DNA of 64,000 bases from Owenia fusiformis (Eukaryota; Annelida; Polychaeta; Sabellida; Oweniidae). Positions 1,056 through 2,241 of this stretch are shown one piece after another. A program made the position numbers and the translations under genes. How positions within the stretch are numbered: the stretch's first letter is position 1; the number at the start of each line of letters is the position of its first letter. The DNA lies in the NCBI GenBank assembly GCA_903813345.2, contig CAIIXF020000011.1, positions 32,666,166-32,730,165 of the forward strand. Reading direction: 5' to 3'. The notes beneath the pieces are model-generated. The model saw nothing but the letters and a program-made list of their open reading frames with translations. It did no database searches and had not been told where the DNA came from.

Positions 1056-1273
1056 CTTGAAAAATGTCAAAGTGGCGCCCCCTGCGACTGACCCATATTT
1101 TATTTCGTTCTGCTTGGCTAAATCATCAGCATTTTCTATAGGAGACTGCATTCTTTCCACGGTCAAGAATGCAGCTAGGTTAGCAGTATATGATGATATC
1201 ATGATTAGCGTGAAAAACCACCATATACCACTGACTAACCTCGTTGATATAGCACGAGGGCCAAACTCGGAAC
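1056..1273 (-). CDS. GRIK: Receptor alternative exon 13d (M3 / S2 start), most canonical copy
   Basis: 218 nt, phase 1 to 0, acceptor ATTTTTAG, donor GTAGTG, no stop. Reads [53 protein letters not shown] and GGATLTFFK. This is the copy closest to vertebrate kainate receptors (SPIDSADDLAKQTKIEYG, GATMTFFK) and the only one with Ala-Thr at the ligand-contact pair. The preceding intron is 124 nt. Confidence 0.93.
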
Positions 1274-1397
1274 CTAAAAATAGTTAGCATGTGTTAGTCG
1301 AGATTAATTAATTATTAATGTTGTGCGAGAGTAACGTGAATGATTGTTAGAATGATGATGGGTGGCTAGGCGGGCTAGGCATCACTCTACATAATAC

Positions 1398-1615
1398 CTT
1401 GAAGAAAGAACGCGTTGATCCACCACGCGTGCTTCCGTAACTAATATCAGTCTGTGAAGCTAGATCCACTACATTCTTTATGGGCACGACCATCCTTTGG
1501 ACAGTGAGGAAGGCCGCGAGGTTAGCGGTGTAAGATGAGATTATGATTAGGGTGAAAAACCACCAGATGGCGCTTATAAGACGTGTAGAGTTTGCCTTGG
1601 GAGCCACTTCACAAC
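1398..1615 (-). CDS. GRIK: Receptor alternative exon 13c (M3 / S2 start)
   Basis: 218 nt, phase 1 to 0, acceptor GATTACAG, donor GTATTA, no stop. Reads [35 protein letters not shown], then [19 protein letters not shown] and GGSTRSFFK. It is the most divergent copy after M3: VERM is VQRM and the acidic ADDL block is VVDL. The preceding intron is 106 nt. Confidence 0.92.
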
Positions 1616-1721
1616 CTGTAATCATGTTTGAAAGAAATAGTCCACTATTAAAATACTATGATTGTGTTAACAGAATAGGTCACCTCCAAACTAAGGTATT
1701 ATCACACTTTGGACAGTGTAC

Positions 1722-1939
1722 CTTAAAAAATGAAACCGTTGATCCCCCTTCTGATGTGCCATATTTTATATCTGTTTGTCTTGAGAGATCGTCTGCACTT
1801 TCAATGGTTGGTACCATCTTTTCTACTGTCAAAAAAGCTGCCAAGTTTGCCGTGTAAGATGAAATCATGATAAGGGTAAAAAACCACCAACATACTCCAA
1901 CTATTCTGGTTGATGTTGCTGCTGGCATAACTTCACATC
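1722..1939 (-). CDS. GRIK: Receptor alternative exon 13b (M3 / S2 start)
   Basis: 218 nt, phase 1 to 0, acceptor GCTTTCAG, donor GTACAC, no stop. Reads [20 protein letters not shown], then [15 protein letters not shown] and GGSTVSFFK. Glu at pore +4, a Cys in M3 (GVCWW), Ser-Thr at the ligand-contact pair. Only 84 nt of intron separate it from exon 13a. Confidence 0.93.
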
Positions 1940-2023
1940 CTGAAAGCAGTATATTTGAAGCAAGCATGTTAATGGAAGACGAAGCATTATGCCGCAGGCC
2001 CTTTATGAATCTGAAAATAATAC

Positions 2024-2241
2024 CTTAAAGAAATTTTCAGTGGAGCCTCCCATACTTGTTCCATAAGGGATAGCAGTTTGCTTTGAAAGATCGTCTGCGT
2101 TTTCAATTGGTGAATTCATCTTCTCGACCGTGAGGAAGGCTGCGAGATTTGCCGTATATGACGAGATTATAATAAGTGTGAAGAAGTACCACACTGCTGA
2201 GAGCACTCGGGTGGATGTTGCATTTGGGACAATATCTGAAC
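2024..2241 (-). CDS. GRIK: Receptor alternative exon 13a (M3 / S2 start)
   Basis: 218 nt, phase 1 to 0, acceptor ACCATAG, donor GTATTA, no stop. Completes Gly and continues [20 protein letters not shown], then [15 protein letters not shown] and, at the end, GGSTENFFK. Variations: Asp at pore +4, Tyr in place of the second Trp of WWFF, and Ser-Thr at the S2 ligand-contact pair. First of four tandem copies. Confidence 0.93.

Follow-up and report, generated by a model that had tools for sequence, protein, structure and literature searches.

Four tandem exons in a kainate-type receptor gene

We identified four homologous tandem exons, each 218 nt in length, on the minus strand (2241-1056) of a 64,000-nt stretch of the Owenia fusiformis genome (hereafter, the window), and we refer to them as exons a to d in the order of transcription. 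They sit between a common M1-M2 exon and a common S2 exon, the latter lying just left of the window. All four are preceded by AG and followed by GT, keep an open coding frame, have intron phase 1 before and phase 0 after, and encode Gly at the split first codon, confirming the original prediction of four copies that share the 218-nt length, the 1/0 phases and the AG/GT sites and contain no stop codon. Each exon encodes 72 residues, 39 of which are invariant in the alignment of the four, and each matches the Pfam Lig_chan domain with a score of 76-82 bits. The cluster and its introns are as follows.

2242..3869, minus strand: intron of 1628 nt leading into the cluster, with TGCATG at three sites, the final one stopping 14 nt short of exon a
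2024..2241, minus strand: 218-nt alternative exon a, encoding the filter tail (S-D), M3, the linker and the start of S2 (with GGST)
1722..1939, minus strand: 218-nt alternative exon b, with C-E as the filter tail, and GGST
1398..1615, minus strand: 218-nt alternative exon c, with C-E as the filter tail, and GGST
1056..1273, minus strand: 218-nt alternative exon d, with S-E as the filter tail, and GGAT; of the four, the closest to vertebrate GluK1/2
1274..2023, minus strand: stretch with the short introns between the copies, 84 nt (1940-2023), 106 nt (1616-1721) and 124 nt (1274-1397)
1..1055, minus strand: in-window part of the downstream intron of the cluster; the intron is 1352 nt, its last 297 bases lying left of the window

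A tblastn search of the window with each of exons a-d recovered the other three but no further convincing match that could be a fifth copy, and none was found in the next 20 kb to the left of the window by tblastn with exon d. The intron upstream of exon a also contains, at 2351-2743, the words AATCGTATTG and AATATCATATTG, repeated at 51-nt and 21-39-nt steps.

The other recognizable parts of the gene are listed below in the order of transcription.

25553..25645, minus strand: probable first coding exon with signal peptide, placed by eye from open frames
21466..23477, minus strand: ATD exon regions, approximately 23477-23325, 22387-22133, 21925-21713 and 21522-21466 (edges approximate)
6345..8567, minus strand: ATD exon regions, approximately 8567-8391, 6915-6757 and 6443-6345 (edges approximate)
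5947..6060, minus strand: exon region at the ATD-S1 junction (edges approximate)
5427..5633, minus strand: common exon, S1 first half, 207 nt
4261..4453, minus strand: common exon, S1 second half to the start of M1, 193 nt
3870..4019, minus strand: common exon of 150 nt upstream of the cluster, running through M1-M2 as far as the first two glutamines of the filter (MQQ|G) and ending in phase 1
left of the window, starting at L009:9703: common S2 exon (T-SKIQTYERMW), after the 297 further intron bases

A 256-residue piece composed of the upstream S1, M1 and M2 exons and exon d has its best matches among kainate receptors (top entry at 7.7e-121): GluK1 and GluK2, the best named solved relatives, were matched with E-values of about 1e-119 to 1e-118, versus 4e-99 for GluK5 and 2e-94 or weaker for AMPA receptors. 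Furthermore, ATD, S1, M1-M3, S2 and M4 are found in this order, with GluK the closest relatives, as in a kainate-type ionotropic glutamate receptor (iGluR). To the left of the window we found one S2 exon and one S2-M4 exon, each just once in the 20 kb that the search covered; therefore, the gene reaches at least M4 and the M3 exon alone has been multiplied. The exons on either side of the cluster are part of the same gene, and each was found once in the stretches searched. Thus, both the assignment to the kainate type, supported by the GluK1/GluK2 best matches and by Pfam Lig_chan, and the notion that the copies are alternative exons of one gene, flanked as they are by common single-copy exons, have been borne out.

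Several other elements lie in or near the introns of this gene. ARAGORN predicts fifteen plus-strand tRNA-Pro genes at 11804-14919 and also at 20451-20522, many of them spaced by about 152 nt, in one intron of the receptor gene, and 11 tRNA matches attain the Rfam gathering score. Two intronic elements at 3057-3610 and 4652-5282 have matching inverted ends (TACAGGGTGG...CCACCCTGTA) and by eye resemble short DNA transposons, and two overlapping long open frames (333 and 315 aa) at 16815-18730 on the minus strand have, again by eye, the look of a reverse-transcriptase element.

The reading frame permits one exon per message

We placed exons a-d, in all 16 possible inclusion patterns, between the M1-M2 exon and the S2 exon, of which 225 nt were used. 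The patterns that remain open are exactly the four single-exon ones (4/16), while each of the other 12 hits a stop, 2 codons past the M1-M2 exon if all four exons are skipped, and at 85-86 codons if two, three or four are included. It had been argued from the exon length that a single exon per mRNA is the sole productive choice. The argument holds in that two copies shift the frame; however, length alone would permit all four together, since 872 nt is also 2 modulo 3, and it is the out-of-frame stops that block quadruple inclusion. With this amendment the claim itself survives the 16-pattern test. As the reading frame permits just one exon at a time, one gene could make four channels, and we consider it very probable, judging from these sequence features, that the four exons form a mutually exclusive cluster in a kainate receptor gene.

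In the mechanism that we propose, each mRNA would carry one of exons a-d, spliced to the M1-M2 exon on one side and to the single S2 exon on the other. Each of the four would be used in some cell or stage, the choice presumably being set by regulated splice-site competition, and wrongly spliced messages would be cleared by nonsense-mediated decay. Frame-breaking combined with such decay is the best-supported candidate for the exclusion device.

A search for other devices returned little. Docking/selector pairing was scored in two arrangements, and 2 of 24 and 15 of 24 shuffles, respectively, paired as well as the real sequence, in a comparison of low power. None of the seven donors (0/7) fits the strict U12 pattern. 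A neighbouring receptor gene has a 118-nt intron at the matching place, so the shortness of the introns between the copies is no clear bar to splicing. Hence, we found no positive exclusion device, as pairing did not exceed the shuffles, no donor was U12-like and the introns of 106 and 124 nt are close to 118 nt. The word TGCATG, which we take to be an Rbfox site, has 5 occurrences in the cluster introns, 3294 nt in all, where 0.88 would be expected (P 0.002, uncorrected and for a word picked after looking), and we treat this excess as a lead only. Words of 8-10 nt common to the introns comprise one AT-rich 10-mer in two introns and one 8-mer in two.

The four exons are old and constrained as protein

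Pairwise identities among exons a-d are 60-65% at the DNA level and 64-69% at the protein level. In all six pairs, synonymous sites have reached or passed saturation (proportion different 0.75-0.94), with dN at 0.23-0.30; accordingly, all four exons are old and have been constrained as protein. Differences are found at 61-74% of third codon positions, compared with 18-25% of first and second positions. In neutral simulations, 0 of 2000 replicates attained the observed protein identity for each of the six pairs, which rules out chance similarity.

These data bear on three other explanations of the cluster. First, one canonical exon, most likely d, might nearly always be used, the others being rarely used or decaying duplicates. 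Exon d is nearest to GluK1/2 (75-76% versus 65-69% for a-c) and joins GluK1/2 in our tree with a support of 81/86 (see below), and among the seven acceptors scored, that of exon a is the poorest in pyrimidines (fraction 0.50). However, in all four exons synonymous change is saturated, dN is low, the splice dinucleotides are intact and no stop occurs, and since unused copies that old would be expected to have decayed, we regard this explanation as improbable. Second, inclusion might be non-exclusive, with the out-of-frame combinations serving to make truncated receptors or to lower expression; the 12 non-single patterns all give an early stop and could act as a poison switch, but purposeful out-of-frame use alone leaves the protein-level upkeep of four divergent coding sequences unexplained, which makes this explanation somewhat less probable still. 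Third, the copies might be leftovers of genes duplicated in tandem, or artefacts of assembly. This is most improbable, since, although the neighbouring gene does show tandem cassette duplication, no other receptor exons were found between the copies, which are 84-124 nt apart, and recent assembly copies are ruled out by a divergence far too high for assembly duplication, with all four copies intact. Mutually exclusive use of the four exons remains our preferred reading.

Parts of the receptor altered by the choice of exon

Few parts of glutamate receptors are as conserved as M3. As had been predicted, the 12-residue gate motif is identical in exons a-d, and between F19 and V38 a single one of the 20 positions is variable (position 24, I/M). 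The accompanying suggestion that the four channel types would differ in the gate itself is therefore to be dropped. Instead, the differences fall in the filter tail and the M2-M3 turn, in the M3-S2 linker, and in the start of S2, including the agonist-site position 66.

At exon positions 1 and 2, which correspond in the alignments to C589 and D590 of GluA, a has S-D, b and c have C-E, and d has S-E. C589 and D590 are two of the five filter residues listed in PMC9068512, and a simulation study (PMC9976283) describes a calcium site at the backbone atoms of G588, C589 and D590. In positions 39-49, which we take to be the M3-S2 linker, 9 of the 11 residues differ among the four exons. Position 66, aligned with A689 of GluK2, is Ala in d and Ser in a, b and c, and GluK1 has Ser at the equivalent of GluK2 A689. 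A689 and T690 are given as ligand contacts in PMC4550381, which, citing other work, ties the A689 contact to the rate of desensitisation. Gly at position 65 and Thr at position 67 are kept in all four exons, and by the residue rule of PMC6307864 the glutamate type has Gly and Thr at 653/655, as numbered in that paper. We matched 653/655 to exon positions 65/67 by an ungapped alignment that sets C589 as position 1 and presumes that PMC6307864 uses GluA2 numbering; if so, all four versions should still bind glutamate.

The four subunits would thus share the gate motif, the glutamate-defining residues and the rest of the receptor, and would differ in the filter tail, the linker and position 66. 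As the last two filter residues, the linker and position 66 differ, we predict that permeation or block, gating and desensitisation should differ as well. The four subunit versions could also mix in tetramers, and one gene could in this way give four different nerve-signal channels. If the exons are used, the animal can alter permeation, gating coupling and agonist response by splicing alone. Moreover, four natural variants in one constant background would amount to a clean experiment on the contributions of the filter tail, the M3-S2 linker and the residue equivalent to 689.

Comparison with known exon swaps

The closest known case is the flip/flop splicing of AMPA receptors (GRIA1-4), which likewise uses mutually exclusive iGluR exons whose length is not a multiple of three. 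According to PMC8257547, the flip/flop exons are 115 nt, erroneous combinations are thought to be sent to nonsense-mediated decay, and no other regulatory mechanism has been described. However, flip/flop involves two exons at the end of S2 before M4, whereas here four exons of a kainate gene cover the filter tail to the start of S2. That flip/flop affects a different segment had been pointed out in the original prediction, and the account in PMC8257547 agrees with it. Homologous exons also swap a channel segment in voltage-gated sodium channels, fly Cav2 and the insect nAChR alpha6, but these are different channel families and segments, and we found no iGluR M3 swap among them. Clusters of the Dscam type have more than two interchangeable exons between constant exons, as here (PMC6071210); in contrast to their docking/selector pairing, we detected no competing pairing above shuffles, at low power, and the breaking of the frame by double inclusion suffices here for exclusion at the protein level. 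In vertebrates, kainate receptor diversity at the gene level includes Ser in GluK1 and Ala in GluK2, matching Ser in exons a-c and Ala in d; there the two residues are spread over separate genes, whereas here the variants belong to one gene and the rest of the receptor is identical.

Drosophila exons are reportedly the subject of work by Hatje and Kollmar in 2013, and there may be an insect precedent for such an exon swap. Splicing of kainate subunits is described as altering their N- and C-terminal ends (PMC12580572). We found no M3 swap in passages of PMC5740500, PMC5225553, PMC8257547, PMC12580572, PMC6071210, PMC10642201 and PMC6307864, and the terms "splic", "exon" and "isoform" are absent from the main text of PMC6307864. 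In agreement with the claim that no described system swaps M3, we found no described exon swap of the iGluR M3 or pore in the open-access literature, with subscription papers mostly outside the scope of this survey and its longest listings covered in part. Exclusive exons are known in ion channels and AMPA receptors; a swap running from the filter tail through M3 to the start of S2, not found described in that open-access literature, appears to be new.

Duplicated receptor exons elsewhere in the genome

We searched the genome (498 Mb in 525 contigs) with exon d and scored at least 25 candidates, of which at least 21 are M3-like matches. Among the matches listed, only exons a-d lie within a few hundred bases of their neighbours; the pair that comes next in closeness is separated by 4.5 kb. 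A search for relatives in viral_contigs gave 53 pattern matches, 0 of which were confirmed. We constructed a tree of 72 columns from the best 11 of the at least 21 genome matches and four vertebrate sequences, leaving out the 10 weakest. Exons a-d form one clade in 0% of 200 bootstrap trees, which counts against our preferred reading, though the tree is mostly unresolved; as 72 columns are too few, the order of the duplications is not readable from it. The neighbouring gene and a gene at C11:11.5 Mb encode M1 to M3 in one uninterrupted stretch, whereas in the gene in the window M1-M2 is flanked by an intron at either end.

We found three more cases of duplicated receptor exons or exon blocks, in two further genes of the genome. 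The neighbouring kainate-like gene, 0.6 Mb away (C11:33.25 Mb; L011 4934 to L012 928), has its 3' part, comprising the second half of S1, M1-M3, S2 and M4, twice after one S1 exon, and between these two 3' parts we found neither an S1 nor an ATD exon. These parts are possibly alternative 3' cassettes, and they share an identical run of 173 nt over M2-M3 that looks like gene conversion. An AMPA-like gene (L022; C2:34.94 Mb) has tandem ATD exons at 984-1187 and 1232-1435, 204 nt each and 44 nt apart, as well as tandem S2 exons at 8526-8770 and 9044-9291, of 245 and 248 nt. Both pairs are candidates for further mutually exclusive exons. Since the neighbouring and the AMPA-like genes show it too, within-gene exon duplication recurs in the receptors of this genome, beside the duplication of whole genes, a pattern that favours our reading of exons a-d.

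Putting these observations together, we tentatively suggest that one kainate gene may make four channel types through a cassette in which the filter end, the gate linker and the Ala/Ser of the agonist pocket co-vary around a constant gate motif, and that this lineage may diversify its glutamate receptors by duplicating exons and 3' cassettes (the four M3 exons, the 3' parts of the neighbouring gene, and the ATD and S2 exons of the AMPA-like gene) in addition to whole genes; we hold this combined reading as possible rather than probable.

A different kind of repetition occurs in a second AMPA-like gene (L005 2218-3134; C2:34.97 Mb), where the end of an S2 exon, KVSSNLDSKGYGIGTPLGSQLR, is repeated many times at steps of about 62 nt; this array is a minisatellite derived from the exon end.
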